The notes below the pieces were generated by a model that had not been told where the DNA came from, ran no database searches, and saw nothing but the letters and a program-made list of their open reading frames with translations. The translations under genes and the position numbers were made by a program. Positions 35,697 to 43,022 of a stretch of DNA of 46,200 nucleotides are shown here, piece after piece. Positions within the stretch are counted from its first letter, which is position 1. Every line of letters starts with the position of its first letter. This stretch comes from Elusimicrobiota bacterium (lineage in GTDB: Bacteria; Elusimicrobiota; Elusimicrobia; JACQJP01). Location: NCBI GenBank assembly GCA_016204975.1, contig JACQJP010000036.1:1-46200 (forward strand), given 5' to 3'.

Positions 35697-36901
35697 GACT
35701 TTTCAATGATCCCTCCTCCCAAGACCTCACTGCCGCGGTAAAAGACCGCCGACTGCCCCGGAGCGATCGCCCACTGGAAATCCTCAAACTCCACCTCCGC
35801 CTCTTCCCCACCCTCTCCAAAAACCAGAATCTGCGCCGGGGCCGGAGGATGCCGGTGCCGGACCCGCACTTGAGCGTGGAGGGATATGCCCGAGGCCAGC
35901 ACGCTGGGCCCCTCTGGGGCTCCGGCGGGTCCCCGGAGCACTGCGGAGGGGGCGGGGCCCGAAATCCAGTGCACCTCCCGCAGCCGGCAAAATCTCCGGC
36001 CTGCCTCCCGCGCCTCCGCCACCACCAGCGTGGAGCTTTCGGGATGCATCTGGGACACATAGACCGGCCTGCCCAGGGAAATCCCCAAGCCGGAGCGCTG
36101 ACCGATGGTATAGTGCATCAGTCCCCGGTGGGTTCCCAAAAACCTTCCCGAACGGTCCAGAATCGGCCCGGGGCGAAGCCCCGAGGCATCGCCCTTCCCC
36201 TGGGCGACCCGGCTGCGGACAAAACCCCGGTAGTCCCTTCGGGGAACGAAGCATATCTCCTGGCTCTCCGGCTTGGCGGCAGTCGGCAAACGGAGCTCCC
36301 GGGCCTTTTGGCGAACCTGCCGCTTGGTGAGGCCTCCGAGGGGAAAAACCACCCGATTCAAAACCTCCTGGCTCAGCATATACAGAAAGTAGCTCTGGTC
36401 CTTGCACTCATCCACCGCCCGGCGCAACCGGTGCGGATCTGCAGGAGAGCCGCCCGTTTCCACCCGCGCGTAGTGCCCGGTGGCCAAAAGTTCCGCCTGC
36501 CACGCCCGGGTCAAGCGCCACAAAACGTCGAACTTGACCGTACGGTTGCACTCCACGCAAGGATTGGGGGTCCTGCCGCTTAAGTAATGCTCCACAAAAG
36601 GGGAGACGACGCGAGACTCAAAAAGTTCCCAAAGGTCCACCGTATAATGGGGGATCCCCAGCCGCTCGCAAACCCTCGCCGCATCCTCTACGTCCTGAGG
36701 AGATCCGCAGCAGCCAAAACCGGTCTCCATCCGCTCCAGAAGCTTCAAGGTCACCCCGATGACTTCGTGACCCTCCTCCCGCATCAAAGCGGCAGCCACC
36801 GAACTGTCCACCCCTCCGCTCATGGCCACCACGACTCTGGCACGCTGGTCCCCTCTGGGGGCCCGGCCGGTACCCGAAGCTGCGCGAAGGGTGCTGGTCA
36901 C
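35690..36901 (-). CDS. mnmA: tRNA-specific 2-thiouridylase MnmA
   Basis: MnmA thiolates U34 of Lys, Glu and Gln tRNAs. From GTG 36901, which overlaps the nifS stop (GTGA), it has 403 residues. The PP-loop is VVVAMSGGVDSSVAAALM; then FGCCGSPQDVEDA, NPCVECNRTVKF with one catalytic Cys, ATGHYA, KDQSYFLYML and, further on, ESQEICFV with the second Cys. Residues about 3-21 (TSTLRAASGTGRAPRG...) are encoded by the 57-bp repeat and are not family-like. A start at an internal GTG just before VAMSGG would avoid them but shorten the first strand. Confidence 0.93.
   Translation of the reverse strand: MTSTLRAASGTGRAPRGDQRARVVVAMSGGVDSSVAAALMREEGHEVIGVTLKLLERMETGFGCCGSPQDVEDAARVCERLGIPHYTVDLWELFESRVVSPFVEHYLSGRTPNPCVECNRTVKFDVLWRLTRAWQAELLATGHYARVETGGSPADPHRLRRAVDECKDQSYFLYMLSQEVLNRVVFPLGGLTKRQVRQKARELRLPTAAKPESQEICFVPRRDYRGFVRSRVAQGKGDASGLRPGPILDRSGRFLGTHRGLMHYTIGQRSGLGISLGRPVYVSQMHPESSTLVVAEAREAGRRFCRLREVHWISGPAPSAVLRGPAGAPEGPSVLASGISLHAQVRVRHRHPPAPAQILVFGEGGEEAEVEFEDFQWAIAPGQSAVFYRGSEVLGGGIIEKSW
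36839..36895 (-). repeat. 57-bp dispersed repeat, copy at the start of mnmA
   Basis: On the minus strand it begins AGCACCCTTCGCGCAGCTTC, continues GGGTACCGGCCGG, and ends ACCAGCGTGCC. It has the same length and frame as the pyrB copy, with hairpin-forming CCCCC-AGA-GGGG in its right half. Confidence 0.85.
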
Positions 36902-38064
36902 GCCCGGACCGCCTCCCGAAGCCTCGCCACGCACGCGGGAACCACCTCGAGGGCCTTCTCCAACTCCTGCTCCGTATTGCCCCACCCCGTGGAAATCCTC
37001 AAGGCCCCCTTGGCGGCGGAAGGAGCAAACCCCATGGCCTTTAAAACATGGGAGCTCCCTCCCACTCCCGCGGAACAGGCGGGCCCGGAAGAGGCGCAGA
37101 GGCCCTCCAAATCCAACGCGATCACCAGGGCGTTGCCATCCACCGACTCAAATAGAAAACAGGAGGTGTTGGGAAGGCGCGGGGCGGCGCCGGCGCAAAG
37201 CAGGGTTCCCGGAACGCTCTCTAAAACCCCCTGCTCCAACCGGTTTCTAAACTCCAGGGTCCGAGCCGCATGCGCCGTCAGACCTGAGACCGCCAACTCA
37301 CAAGCCACACCCAAGCCCACTGCGGAAGCCACATTCTCCGTGCCGCCCCTTCTGTTTTTCTCCTGCTTGCCGCAAACCAGCGGCGACAAGACTATCCCCC
37401 GGCGGACATACAGCGCTCCGATGCCTTTGGGAGCGTTCAGCTTGTGTCCGGAAATGGACAACAGATCCACCCCCCAAGCCTGCGCGGAAATGGGCACCTT
37501 CCCGGCGGACTGAACCGCGTCCGTATGGAAAAGCACGCCGTTCTGCCGGCAGATCGCGGCGATCTCCCGGATAGGCTGTAGGGTTCCCACCTCGTTGTTG
37601 GCATGCATCACGGAAACCAGGGCGGTTTCCGGGCGCAGAGCTTTTCGGACCGTCTGGGCATCCACCAGGCCCTGGCCGTCTACCGGCAGGAAAGTTACCT
37701 CAAAACCCCGGGGATTCAAAAGGCGGGCTACCTCCAGAACCACCTCATGCTCGATGGAGGAGGTGATCCAATGCCGCCGAGTCCCGCTGCTCCTGCGCCA
37801 GGCCTCATAGAGAACCCCTTCGATGGCCAAAACGTCCGATTCCGAACCACAGGAGGTGAATACGATCTCTTGGGGTTCGGCGGCTCCCACCAGGCGAGCC
37901 ACCTGCTCCCGAGCGGCCTCCACCGCGGCCCTGGCCCTCTGTCCCAGACGGTGCACGCTGGAAGGATTTCCGAACTGCTCGGCCAAGTAGGGAAGCATGG
38001 CTTCCCGCACCTCGGGCCGGATGGGCGCAGTCGCGTTATGATCTAGGTAGAGGAAGGATGCCAT
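36898..38064 (-). CDS. nifS: Cysteine desulfurase (NifS/IscS family)
   Basis: The PLP enzyme takes sulfur from cysteine for Fe-S clusters and tRNA thiolation. From ATG 38064 it has 388 residues: FLYLDHNATAPIRPEV at the start, NNEVGTLQPI, the PLP-lysine motif SGHKLNAPKGIGALYVRRG, and the sulfur-carrying Cys in SSGPACSAGVGGSSHVL. Longer upstream frame belongs to another gene read antisense to nothing family-like, so I excluded it. Overlap with mnmA makes it the likely sulfur donor for MnmA. Which Fe-S scaffold it serves is unknown. Confidence 0.93.
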   Translation of the reverse strand: MASFLYLDHNATAPIRPEVREAMLPYLAEQFGNPSSVHRLGQRARAAVEAAREQVARLVGAAEPQEIVFTSCGSESDVLAIEGVLYEAWRRSSGTRRHWITSSIEHEVVLEVARLLNPRGFEVTFLPVDGQGLVDAQTVRKALRPETALVSVMHANNEVGTLQPIREIAAICRQNGVLFHTDAVQSAGKVPISAQAWGVDLLSISGHKLNAPKGIGALYVRRGIVLSPLVCGKQEKNRRGGTENVASAVGLGVACELAVSGLTAHAARTLEFRNRLEQGVLESVPGTLLCAGAAPRLPNTSCFLFESVDGNALVIALDLEGLCASSGPACSAGVGGSSHVLKAMGFAPSAAKGALRISTGWGNTEQELEKALEVVPACVARLREAVRA

Positions 38065-38086: not shown

Positions 38087-38827
38087 CTACTCCAAACCGA
38101 AGTTTTTGAAGAAATCCTCACCCCCCTCGGCAGGCTTTTCCTCTTGGGCTCCGGGCTTTTTCTTCGGGGAAGCCCCTCCTGCGGGAGGGGCCGCCCCCGG
38201 CAGGGGGGAACTCTGAACAGGACTTTCGGAGGGACGAACGATAGTCTTGCGGACAAAATCATTGAAGGCCACCAACCCCAACTTCTGGTCATAGAAAAAT
38301 CGAAACTCCGACTCCTGGACCTGCGGCTCGTAGGCCCGCCCCAAACGCTCCCGCTGCTGCTCCCAACCCGGGTTGTAGAAAAGCTTGCCCCGGACATCTA
38401 TCCGGCCCTCCACCAGAGGCAGAGAGAAACGAATCCGGTAGATCCCGTTGGAATCGCTCACCCCCGGATCGAAGACCGCCGTCTCAAACAGAACGTCCTT
38501 TTTCTGCTTATCCTTGTCGCCCGCTCCGGAGGCGGCTGCCTCCAGCACCGCCCGGACCACCACCCCCTCCAGGGGATTCCCATCATAATCGGTGGTCACT
38601 CCCCGGATATAGCCCTCCAGATATTGGGTGTACTGCGGATAGGACAAAAACAAAAACTCCCGGCGCCCGGAGAGCTTGCGAATGGTGGTCAAGTCCACCA
38701 CGCGCTCCTCCGCCAGGTAGAGATCCTTTTCCACTACCGGAGCCTTGCGCTTACGCCCTAAGATGGGAAGGGCGCAGCCGGCAGAAAATATCCCCAAAAG
38801 CATCAGCCATAAAATCTTTGACCGCAT
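38087..38827 (-). CDS. Candidate separate lipoprotein encoded by the end of the PPDK frame
   Basis: From ATG 38827 the product is 246 residues. It begins MRSKILWLMLLGIFSAGCALP: two basic residues, a hydrophobic core and a Cys after SAG, which fits a lipoprotein signal. Then come EKDLYLAEERVVDLTTIRKLSGRREF and a beta-rich stretch (YIRGVTTDYDGNPLEGVVVRAV, SNGIYRIRFSLPLVEGRIDVRGKLFYNP) like carboxypeptidase-regulatory domains. A Pro/Lys-rich end (PGAAPPAGGASPKKK) closes with FKNFGLE. AAAGGA directly abuts the ATG, too close for a normal ribosome-binding site. It may be independent, or only part of the fusion. Confidence 0.55.
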   Translation of the reverse strand: MRSKILWLMLLGIFSAGCALPILGRKRKAPVVEKDLYLAEERVVDLTTIRKLSGRREFLFLSYPQYTQYLEGYIRGVTTDYDGNPLEGVVVRAVLEAAASGAGDKDKQKKDVLFETAVFDPGVSDSNGIYRIRFSLPLVEGRIDVRGKLFYNPGWEQQRERLGRAYEPQVQESEFRFFYDQKLGLVAFNDFVRKTIVRPSESPVQSSPLPGAAPPAGGASPKKKPGAQEEKPAEGGEDFFKNFGLE

Positions 38828-41533
38828 TCCTTTAGCGCGGCTTTGGGAACGCGGCTTCCTTTTAGATTCCACCGCGGCCTGGGCCGCCGCCAATTGCGCC
38901 ACGGGCACCCGATAGGGAGAGCAGGAAACGGTGTCGAGGCCGGCCTGGTGACAGAACCGAATGGTTTTGGGATCCCCTCCGTGCTCCCCGCAGATCCCGA
39001 TCTTGAGATTCCTGCGCGCACGCCGCCCTTCCTTCACCGCCCAAAGGAGCAGCCTCCCCACGCCGGCTTCATCCAAGCTCTGGAAGGGGTCCTCCGAAAG
39101 AATTTTTTCCTTCCGATAGATGGGAATGAACTTTCCGTAATCGTCCCGGGAGAAGCCGAAGGTCATCTGGGTCAGATCGTTGGTGCCGAAGGAAAAAAAC
39201 TCCGCCTCCCGGGCGATCTCTCCGGCTGTGAGCGCCCCCCGTGGGACCTCGATCATGGTGCCGATCCGGTAGGAAACCTGGACAGAGTAGCGCCCCAGCA
39301 CTTCCTGGGCGGCCTCCTGTACCACCCTCTTCTGGTGGGCCAGCTCCCGTGCCTCCCCCACCAGGGGGATCATGATCTCCGGAAACACCGGAATTCCCTC
39401 TGCGGCCAACTCGCAGGCCGCGGTGAGGATGGCCCGGGTCTGCATCCGGGTAATCTCCGGATAGGTGATGCCCAGGCGGCAGCCGCGGTGCCCCAGCATC
39501 GGATTGGCCTCCCTCAGTTCCTGGGCCTTGGCCCACAGACGCTCCGCGGACACCCCCAGCTGGGCCGCGCGCCTTTGGGCATCCTCCAAAGAGTGCGGCA
39601 GAAACTCATGCAGAGGGGGATCGAGGGTGCGGATGGCCACCGGACACCCCGCCATCTCCCGGAAAATGCCCAAAAAATCCTCCTTCTGAAGCGGAAACAG
39701 CCTCTGGAGCGCGCGGCGCCTCTCGGTCTCATCCTCAGCCAAGATCATGGCCACCATCAGGGCAATCCGATCCTCCCCAAAAAACATATGTTCGGTCCGG
39801 CAAAGCCCGATTCCCTCCGCCCCAAAGGCCCGGGCCGTGCGGGCATCTGAGGGAACATCCGCATTGGCCACCACCCGAAGCCTGCGCAGTTCCCCCGCCC
39901 AATCCATCAGCTTGCGGTAGTTTGCAAAAAGCGGAGAGGCCTTGGGATCCATCTCCCGACGAATGACGCGCAGAATCTCGGAGGGCTGGGTGGGGACTTC
40001 CCCCAGAATCACCTCTCCGCTAAACCCGTCCAGGGAGATCCGGTCCCCTTCCCGGATGAGGGTGCCGTTGACTCGAAAGGCGGACCCCCCAGGCTCAAAT
40101 TCGACGGCCCCGCACCCCACCACACAGACCTTGCCCATCCCCCGCCCTACGACTGCCGCATGGCTGGTGGCTCCTCCCGTGGCGGTCAGGATTCCTTCCG
40201 CCGCGGACATCCCGTGGATGTCGTCGGGGTTGGTCTCCGGACGCACCAGGATGACCGGACCCCGGGAAGCCTCCTCCACCGCGCGATCCGCGGAAAAGAC
40301 CGCCCGGCCGCTGGCCGCCCCCGGACCTGCGGGAAGCCCCTGCGCCAAAACCCGGAAACGGGAGCGCTCCCCGGAATCGAACACCGGCTTTAAAAGTTGA
40401 TCGAGCTGCTGGGCTGGAACGCGCAGCACCGCCTCCTCCTTGGAGAGGAGTCCCTCCTCCACCATCTCCACCGCGACTCTAAGCGCCGCGGCTGCCGTGC
40501 GCTTACCCACCCGGGTCTGCAGCATATACAGCTTTCCCTTTTCCACCGTAAACTCAAAATCCTGGACGTCCCGGTAGTGTTTCTCCAGGCGGGCGGTAAT
40601 GCGGCGGAGCTGTCGAAAGACCCCCGGCATCTCCTCCTCCATCCGGGCGATGGGGTGAGGGGTGCGAATGCCGGCCACCACATCCTCCCCCTGGGCATTG
40701 GGCAGATACTCCCCGTAAAACTCCTTGGCCCCGGTGGCGGGGTTGCGGGTAAAGCCCACCCCGGTCGCGGAACCCTCCCCCAAATTTCCAAAGACCATGG
40801 CCTGAACATTGCAGGCGGTTCCCAGCTCCTCCGAGATCTTATTGAGCCTGCGGTAGGTCACCGCCCGCGGGTTGTTCCATGACCCAAACACCGCATCCCG
40901 GGCCGCCTCCAACTGACGCCGGGAGTCCGGTGGGAACTCCTCTCCCACATGACGGCGGTACACCTCCCGATAGCGCCGTACCACCTCTTGAAGCTCTTCC
41001 GCTGCAAGATTCGCATCCTGCCGGGCGCCGGCGCGCCGGACTGCCTCCTCCAGCACCTTTTCGAACTCCCCCTTTTCGATCCCCTTCACCACGTTGCCGA
41101 ACATCTGGAGGAAACGCCGGTAGGCGTCCCAGGCGAAGCGCGGGTTCTGCGTGGCGCGCGCCAGGGTTTCGGTCGCGGAGTCGTTTAAGCCCAGGTTGAG
41201 AATGGTGTCCATCATCCCCGGCATGGAGAACTTGGAGCCGCTGCGCACCGAAACCAGCAGAGGTCTTTTGGGGTCCCCGAAACGCTTGCCCGCCAGCTTC
41301 TGGAGCCGCGCCAGCGCTTTCTCGAACTGGGATTCAAACCCAGGGGGATATCGTCTGCCATGGGCATAGAAATACCGGCAGACCTCGGTGGAAATGGTAA
41401 AGCCGGGTGGAACGGGGACGCCGTCGCGAGACATCTGGGCCAGTCCCGCCCCCTTGCCCCCCAAAAGGTCCTTCATCCCGCCATGGCCATCCGCCCGGCC
41501 CGGACTAAAAAAGTAGATGTATTTACGCGCCAT
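38087..41533 (-). CDS. ppdK: Pyruvate phosphate dikinase fused in frame to a lipoprotein-like domain
   Basis: PPDK interconverts pyruvate + ATP + Pi and PEP + AMP + PPi. Residues 1-902 are a full PPDK: VSVRSGSKFSMPGMMDTILNLG at the nucleotide domain, TGGATSHAAVVGRGMGKVC with the phospho-His, EGIGLCRTEHMFF, SFGTNDLTQMTFGFSRDD, and ending GLDTVSCSPYRVPVAQLAAAQAA. No stop follows. After a linker (ESKRKPRSQSRAKG) the frame continues into a 246-residue protein with its own signal peptide and lipobox. I used ATG 41533; TTG 41569 would add 12 residues. A lost stop codon or base error could create the fusion. Confidence 0.85.
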   Translation of the reverse strand: MARKYIYFFSPGRADGHGGMKDLLGGKGAGLAQMSRDGVPVPPGFTISTEVCRYFYAHGRRYPPGFESQFEKALARLQKLAGKRFGDPKRPLLVSVRSGSKFSMPGMMDTILNLGLNDSATETLARATQNPRFAWDAYRRFLQMFGNVVKGIEKGEFEKVLEEAVRRAGARQDANLAAEELQEVVRRYREVYRRHVGEEFPPDSRRQLEAARDAVFGSWNNPRAVTYRRLNKISEELGTACNVQAMVFGNLGEGSATGVGFTRNPATGAKEFYGEYLPNAQGEDVVAGIRTPHPIARMEEEMPGVFRQLRRITARLEKHYRDVQDFEFTVEKGKLYMLQTRVGKRTAAAALRVAVEMVEEGLLSKEEAVLRVPAQQLDQLLKPVFDSGERSRFRVLAQGLPAGPGAASGRAVFSADRAVEEASRGPVILVRPETNPDDIHGMSAAEGILTATGGATSHAAVVGRGMGKVCVVGCGAVEFEPGGSAFRVNGTLIREGDRISLDGFSGEVILGEVPTQPSEILRVIRREMDPKASPLFANYRKLMDWAGELRRLRVVANADVPSDARTARAFGAEGIGLCRTEHMFFGEDRIALMVAMILAEDETERRRALQRLFPLQKEDFLGIFREMAGCPVAIRTLDPPLHEFLPHSLEDAQRRAAQLGVSAERLWAKAQELREANPMLGHRGCRLGITYPEITRMQTRAILTAACELAAEGIPVFPEIMIPLVGEARELAHQKRVVQEAAQEVLGRYSVQVSYRIGTMIEVPRGALTAGEIAREAEFFSFGTNDLTQMTFGFSRDDYGKFIPIYRKEKILSEDPFQSLDEAGVGRLLLWAVKEGRRARRNLKIGICGEHGGDPKTIRFCHQAGLDTVSCSPYRVPVAQLAAAQAAVESKRKPRSQSRAKGMRSKILWLMLLGIFSAGCALPILGRKRKAPVVEKDLYLAEERVVDLTTIRKLSGRREFLFLSYPQYTQYLEGYIRGVTTDYDGNPLEGVVVRAVLEAAASGAGDKDKQKKDVLFETAVFDPGVSDSNGIYRIRFSLPLVEGRIDVRGKLFYNPGWEQQRERLGRAYEPQVQESEFRFFYDQKLGLVAFNDFVRKTIVRPSESPVQSSPLPGAAPPAGGASPKKKPGAQEEKPAEGGEDFFKNFGLE

Positions 41534-41605
41534 TGCGGCTATTAAATCATTTTCCTCGAAGTGGGACAAGCAGGCGAGAGCGGGCGGCTAAATAGAGATG
41601 GGGGG

Positions 41606-42238
41606 TTACCCGGCAGATTTGACCGGCGCACTTTTTACGAAGAAGACGACGCGGCGGTTGCGCGTGCGGTTTCCGGGGGAGTCGTTGGAGACCACGGGAC
41701 GGTACTCGCCGTAGCCGATGGCGGCCAGCCTTGCAGGAGGCAACGCCTTTTTCAAAATCAGATAGCGGACCACCTCCGTCGCCCGCGCCGTGGAGAGCTC
41801 CCAGTTGGAGGCGTGGCGGGAGGTGGCGATGGGCACATCGTCTGTATGGCCCTCCACCACGATCTCATGCTTGGCGGCCAGGCCTTGAAGGGTGGGAGCA
41901 ACCTTGTCTAAGAGTTGGACGATGGTGGGGGTCAGATCCGCCCGGCCGCTTTCAAAAAACCCGGCCTGGCCGCGCTCCTCAAAGGTGATGTGCAGTCCCT
42001 CCCGGTCCACCTTCACGTCGCCGCTCACCTCCTGCTGCTGCATCATCTCCTCAATCTCCTGGCGGGCCTTCTGGATGTCCTTGTTGAGGGCGGCCGAAAG
42101 GGCGTAGAGCACCACGAAGAAGATGACCAGCTCGGTCATCAAATCCGCGTAGTTGACCAGCCAGGCAGGGGCCGGATGCCCGATCTGGGAAACCCGGGGA
42201 TCATCCTCATCAATCACGTTCCGGGGATTAATCGGCAC
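41606..42238 (-). CDS. motB: Flagellar motor stator protein MotB
   Basis: MotB anchors the stator to peptidoglycan. The 210-residue protein has one membrane segment at about 26-50 (PAWLVNYADLMTELVIFFVVLYALS) with the proton-carrying Asp32. The OmpA-like domain (about 85-205) has VVEGHTDDVPIATS, NWELSTARATEVVRYLI and NRTRNRRVVFFVK. It is short for MotB, with a brief linker region. The start overlaps the end of motA by 11 bp. It could serve a non-flagellar motor. Confidence 0.92.
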   Translation of the reverse strand: MPINPRNVIDEDDPRVSQIGHPAPAWLVNYADLMTELVIFFVVLYALSAALNKDIQKARQEIEEMMQQQEVSGDVKVDREGLHITFEERGQAGFFESGRADLTPTIVQLLDKVAPTLQGLAAKHEIVVEGHTDDVPIATSRHASNWELSTARATEVVRYLILKKALPPARLAAIGYGEYRPVVSNDSPGNRTRNRRVVFFVKSAPVKSAG

Positions 42239-43022
42239 GGCCCTGCCCCGTGACGGAACTGATCACCCGCTTGGCGGGTTCCAGGTAGGCCTTTAGATTG
42301 GCCTCCACCATGCTGGGGGCCGCCCCGGTCTGGAGCAGCAGCACCCCCCGAATCACAATCTCCTTGACCAACAGCTCTTCATCCGAGCGCCGGCGGAGCT
42401 TCCCCGCCATCGGCAAAAACAAAAGATAGCCGGCCCCCAGACCGTAGAAGGCCGCGGCCAGCGCCAAGGCCATCCTCCGAGGCACCTCGCCGACGTCGTC
42501 AATCCCATTGAGCATCAAGATCATCCCCAAAACCGTTCCGATGATCCCAAAGGCGGGGGCATAGGTTCCCAGGGCATTGAAGATCTCCCGCCCTATCTTG
42601 TGGCGCTCACGGATAAATCCGATCTCTGTTTCCAACATATTGCGGATGAACTCATGGTCCGCCCCATCCACTACCAGTTGGACTCCCCGCTGCAGAAAGT
42701 CATTGGTGATCTTCTTGACGTCCCCCTCCAGAGCCAAAAAACCCTCCTTCTTGGCTTTTTGGGAGAGGCTGACAAAGGTAGTCACAATCTCGGAGGTATC
42801 TTCGCCGCTGGAGAAAAGCACCTTTCTCAAAACCCTCCCCAGTCCCGCCACCTGGGACAGGGGATAGTTGACCAGCGTGGCGCAGAAGGTTCCCCCCAGC
42901 ACCACAAACACCGCTTCGATATTTAAAAAGGGCTTAAATCCGGCGACGCCCTCCGATAGAAACACGCTGGCCACCACCAGCCCCGCAAAAACCAGGATCC
43001 CCAATATCGTCGCGAAATCCAT
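42228..43022 (-). CDS. motA: Flagellar motor stator protein MotA
   Basis: MotA forms the pentameric stator ring with MotB and couples ion flow to rotation. The 264 residues show four membrane segments (about 4-22, 35-55, 150-172, 180-205). The conserved APAFGIIGTVLGMILML (with the functional Pro) is at the third. The large cytoplasmic loop has FLALEGDVKKITNDFLQRGV, FIRNMLETEI and RERH. It follows flbD by 28 bp and precedes motB. Confidence 0.94.
   Translation of the reverse strand: MDFATILGILVFAGLVVASVFLSEGVAGFKPFLNIEAVFVVLGGTFCATLVNYPLSQVAGLGRVLRKVLFSSGEDTSEIVTTFVSLSQKAKKEGFLALEGDVKKITNDFLQRGVQLVVDGADHEFIRNMLETEIGFIRERHKIGREIFNALGTYAPAFGIIGTVLGMILMLNGIDDVGEVPRRMALALAAAFYGLGAGYLLFLPMAGKLRRRSDEELLVKEIVIRGVLLLQTGAAPSMVEANLKAYLEPAKRVISSVTGQGRAD

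Follow-up and report, generated by a model that had tools for sequence, protein, structure and literature searches.

An in-frame run-on of a pyruvate phosphate dikinase gene and a lipoprotein gene, probably accidental, in an Elusimicrobiota contig

The window, i.e., the whole stretch of 46,200 nucleotides which was analysed, is the entire contig C12 of a 1.5-Mb genome of 87% completeness. Its reverse strand contains a single frame (41533-38087) that is translated into 1148 residues without a stop and encodes, in this order, a complete pyruvate phosphate dikinase (PPDK), a basic tail and a complete lipoprotein beginning at Met903 (38827). Very probably, these are two separate, ordinary genes which were accidentally run together in frame after a gene insertion, and not a new fused protein. 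In this lineage, an insertion first placed PPDK 3' of motB and 5' of the lipoprotein gene within an old operon; its stop codon would then have been displaced out of frame when the final ~30 bases upstream of the lipoprotein start changed slightly in length, either through a true mutation or through a mistake in the assembly. The odd protein architecture dissolves once the gene order of the relatives is considered, and the conserved operon boundary together with the conserved length of the enzyme's tail locates the missing stop. The coordinates of all features are compiled in Table 1.

Table 1. Features of the window in and around the open frame.
Feature	Position	Strand	Basis
Pyruvate phosphate dikinase, complete, residues 1-889	38867..41533	-	TIGR01828, Pfam domains, phmmer against solved PPDKs
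Stopless PPDK-lipoprotein tail SKRKPRSQSRAKG, site of the missing stop	38828..38866	-	Sequence; tails of relatives
Out-of-frame TAA, overlapping the conserved Ser-Lys codons	38862..38864	-	Sequence; tails of relatives
Out-of-frame TAA following residue 899, 4 bases upstream of the lipoprotein ATG	38832..38834	-	Sequence; commonest tail length
Lipoprotein gene: own ATG, signal peptide, lipobox Cys, beta-rich domain	38087..38827	-	Separate in relatives; lipobox pattern; model
motB-like (OmpA/MotB) gene, adjoining the lipoprotein gene in relatives	41606..42238	-	tblastn synteny
motA-like gene	42228..43022	-	tblastn synteny
NifS/IscS-type cysteine desulfurase, 3' of the lipoprotein gene in some relatives	36898..38064	-	NCBIfam, synteny

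The two parts of the open frame

The PPDK part matched TIGR01828 (pyruvate phosphate dikinase) with 1276 bits (cut-off 843), residues 4-888 covering positions 2-865 of the 865 of the model, and contained the Pfam domains PPDK_N, PEP-utilizers and PEP-utilizers_C. PPDKs with a crystal structure were aligned to the same residues using phmmer, up to at most 3 residues from their C-terminus. Both the catalytic His motif GGATSHAAVV and the C-terminal motif CGEHGGDP are present in the translation, as seen in alignment with a solved PPDK. According to a genome search, the window copy is the sole full PPDK of this genome. It groups among the PPDKs of its class, and this comparison, confined to its own phylum, does not suggest a foreign source. 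Direct repeats of at least 14 bases, as a trace of a mobile element carrying PPDK, were looked for in 38700-41700 and none were found.

The lipoprotein comprises residues 903-1148 (38827-38090). Its N-terminus, MRSKILWLMLLGIFSAGC, fits a PROSITE-style lipobox pattern, the lipobox Cys being residue 18 of 246. A basic n-region, a hydrophobic core and the lipobox fall within the first 40 residues only if ATG 38827 is taken as the start; counted from its first start, the 1148-residue frame does not qualify as a lipoprotein by its N-terminus. This layout recurs in a family of homologues. Thus, the description in the earlier note of a PPDK in frame with a protein having its own lipoprotein signal was borne out by the translation, the span of TIGR01828 and the lipobox pattern. 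No Pfam or NCBIfam family matched the lipoprotein domain above cut-off; CarboxypepD_reg (Pfam) matched below threshold. The beta-rich core of a structure model built on 45 sequences was predicted well (mean pLDDT 74), and a fold search with this model against solved structures gave no match at E ≤ 0.001. The best, weak fold matches were CnaB-type pilins and intradiol dioxygenases, which share a transthyretin-like beta-sandwich type; this agrees with the sub-threshold match to CarboxypepD_reg.

Gene order in relatives and occurrence of the join

The lipoprotein is encoded in 24 of the 60 genomes of the relatives search, the window's own counted in. Separate genes in relatives had been proposed as a check, and each of the 69 named Elusimicrobiota loci indeed encodes the lipoprotein as a gene of its own; wherever the group is stated, these loci belong to Elusimicrobia or Elusimicrobiota MAGs. 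The named loci share a recurrent operon of TPR, coiled coil, motA, motB, lipoprotein, (NifS), MnmA and Ddl genes, in which the lipoprotein gene usually lies directly 3' of motB. Where callable, the lipobox start is mostly -4 to +38 bases from the motB stop; motB is missing from the examined stretch in 5 of the 69 loci. The lipoprotein of the window is homologous to this motAB-adjacent family over its whole length and the order of the window is that of the recurrent operon, except that the lipoprotein gene does not follow motB directly, PPDK intervening. PPDK was found between motB and the lipoprotein gene in none of the 69 loci. This absence together with the otherwise shared order shows that PPDK was inserted into the old operon in the lineage of the window.

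An order absent from every relative locus (69) might also result from a chimeric assembly, in which case the place of PPDK 3' of motB and 5' of the lipoprotein gene would be spurious. However, two false joins exactly at gene boundaries would be required, the region is of uniform GC content, and PPDK, which has no flanking direct repeats, is single in the genome and fits its class; a chimera is therefore considered very unlikely.

A query of 448 residues spanning the join between PPDK and lipoprotein was searched against 341 genomes of the phylum, the comparison genomes being of 'same class' or 'same phylum' level, and gave matches in 268. Among the best ~150 of the 268, the matches end at or soon after the PPDK tail, save that in the window's genome; a few of those listed extend slightly past the tail, with stops inside. 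No match but the window's own covers the join and the lipoprotein, and such a match would be expected among those listed because covering both parts should give a high score. A conserved fusion was hence found in 0 of the 69 loci and in no other genome among the matches listed (341 searched), which argues for two genes run together and against the new functional fusion that the earlier note had considered. A literature search found no paper joining pyruvate phosphate dikinase, gene fusion and lipoprotein.

In a functional fusion or polyprotein, the internal signal would tether PPDK to the membrane, or signal peptidase II would cut at the lipobox. The frame and both parts are intact, and the linker is rich in Lys and Arg, as would be expected of an N-in signal; since the comparison is at class or phylum level only, a fusion fixed in the lineage of the window would also be compatible with it. 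Against this stand the confinement to the window's genome among the matches listed, the linker, which begins as an ordinary PPDK tail, and the rest of the lipoprotein family, which is exported from its own start. If read-through occurs, one can conceive of an N-in/C-out topology in which the chain is cleaved at Cys920, though nothing supports it. That the junction is real and used, giving one polyprotein with an inner-membrane-anchored PPDK which is cut by the lipoprotein signal peptidase, appears highly improbable; if true, the output of PPDK would be coupled to that of a lipoprotein of the envelope encoded in a MotAB-type operon.

The tail and the missing stop

In relatives, PPDK stops 3-12 residues past the position of Glu889, with one outlier of 34. 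The commonest distance is 10, which is shared by many of the closest PPDK sequences. Directly after the enzyme, the tails of many relatives have E-A-K, E-S-K or E-G-K, e.g. VEAKRKTEYTSK and LESKKKSEYSSK. The tail of the window is VESKRKPRSQSR, after which the frame runs on. PPDK is thus complete with its expected end inside the tail, as would be the case for two genes run together. Two TAAs (38864-38862 and 38834-38832) lie in one and the same other frame. The former had been named in the earlier note as the expected end of PPDK; it is present out of frame as described, but at this place the window frame keeps E-S-K like the E-x-K tails of relatives. A stop at 38864-38862 would leave ~1 residue past Glu889 compared to at least 3 in every relative examined, and was rejected. 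Arg899 is ten residues past Glu889 and the codon following it overlaps the TAA at 38834-38832. Since its position fits the commonest tail length of the relatives, this TAA is the best candidate for the displaced PPDK stop, judging from sequence comparison. An out-of-frame stop located where PPDKs of relatives end again favours two genes run together.

Most simply, the missing stop would be accounted for by a slight gain or loss of bases in a candidate interval of ~30 bases, about 38863-38834. Of the earlier proposal that a one-base change would restore separate genes, the small length change is compatible with the evidence, whereas the stop at 38862-38864 is not. A slippery heptamer for programmed frameshifting was sought by eye at the join and none was seen.

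The frequency of frame flaws was determined for 289 neighbouring gene pairs of the operon in the 69 related loci, window aside. One pair was joined in frame, namely the TPR and coiled-coil genes of L048 (2094-4196), and three pairs run on in another frame. Because only 1 of 289 other pairs was joined in frame, the join exceeds what stop-poor, GC-rich DNA commonly gives. At that pair rate, chance or error may account for a few joins in a genome as large as this one, and a few frame flaws per several hundred genes in the same operon of relatives are in line with an accidental run-on. In L039 (5238-6974; complete MAG chromosome CP096137.1), motB is stopless and continues across the lipoprotein gene in a different frame, and NifS is broken into two frames, both likely indel flaws. 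PPDK is split in G022.

As the cause of the missing stop, assembly error and real mutation are roughly balanced. That the assembly or sequencing is simply wrong, and that the genes are separate in the real genome with a stop near 38834, is possible at somewhat under an even chance: the stop codon is at the expected place, merely out of frame, and like flaws occur in other assemblies (the split PPDK of G022, the run-on motB and split NifS of L039). However, the tail stretch has no homopolymer of more than 4 bases. Furthermore, 20 conserved genes examined on the contig are unbroken and match their family models over nearly the full length, which argues against an indel-prone assembly and also counts to some extent against an accidental run-on in general, the assembly not being visibly error-prone. 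A real accidental stop loss, in which cells make most lipoprotein by starting at the internal ATG and tolerate some product of read-through, is a tentative reading of very similar standing. It agrees with the good condition of the remainder of the contig, the intact start and signal of the lipoprotein and the intact PPDK. On the other hand, no second genome with the join was found among the matches listed, and the internal ATG has no well-spaced Shine-Dalgarno site, which is equally so for the operon neighbours.

Lipoprotein start, operon context and comparison with known systems

AAAGGA abuts ATG 38827 with no spacer; hence, a well-spaced Shine-Dalgarno site is absent. A spaced site is also missing at the starts of motA, motB, PPDK and NifS. 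In the genome sequence, sampled as 20 stretches, a spaced site was present at one third of 232 first ATGs (374 kb) versus about a quarter of control positions. Because the operon neighbours have no spaced site and the genome-wide signal is weak, Shine-Dalgarno sites are uninformative on the internal start. The internal start at 38827 proposed in the earlier note is thus compatible with the evidence, start, signal and lipobox being intact, but is not demonstrated by a Shine-Dalgarno site. These retained elements also favour two genes run together. As the start, n-region, core and lipobox are kept, the lipoprotein would in either case most likely still be made separately from ATG 38827 and exported by its own signal. 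If the missing stop is real, read-through ribosomes would additionally make a PPDK-lipoprotein of 125 kDa as a by-product, and the locus would then serve as a natural experiment in which translation of an exported protein is initiated from within a housekeeping gene; if not, it is a caution against annotating such open frames as fusions.

The lipoprotein belongs to an unnamed, Elusimicrobiota-wide family (window 38087-38827; L033-L101) which is tied to motA/motB-like genes and ends in a conserved F-K-x-F. In the genomes of family f4 (L023-L032), two lipoprotein paralogues are found in tandem, with no motA/motB in the short stretches examined. The motA/motB-like genes of the window span 41606-43022. 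A family search of the 87% complete genome found no FlhA, controls being positive. For this reason, the MotAB-type stator pair is probably not flagellar and may serve a non-flagellar complex. The place of the lipoprotein gene beside motA/motB-like genes suggests that its product is a putative envelope partner of such a stator-type complex.

The PPDK part matches the Clostridium symbiosum enzyme (PDB 1kbl/1dik, TIGR01828) over its full length, including the N, mobile and PEP-binding domains, and ends at the same AAAQAA motif; it differs from this enzyme in having no in-frame stop codon past the tail. With the motAB-adjacent lipoprotein family of Elusimicrobiota found here, the window copy shares 37-54% identity, its own signal and the family's neighbours, motB and NifS/MnmA. 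In contrast to the family, the window copy has PPDK, not motB, immediately upstream and shares an uninterrupted frame with PPDK. It is a general phenomenon that adjacent genes become joined in frame by accident, through loss of a stop or through a frameshift. The window case resembles this phenomenon in the co-directional adjacent genes, the second of which keeps its start, and in the out-of-frame stop beside the junction. Nothing essential differs; the signal peptide in mid-chain just makes the case conspicuous.
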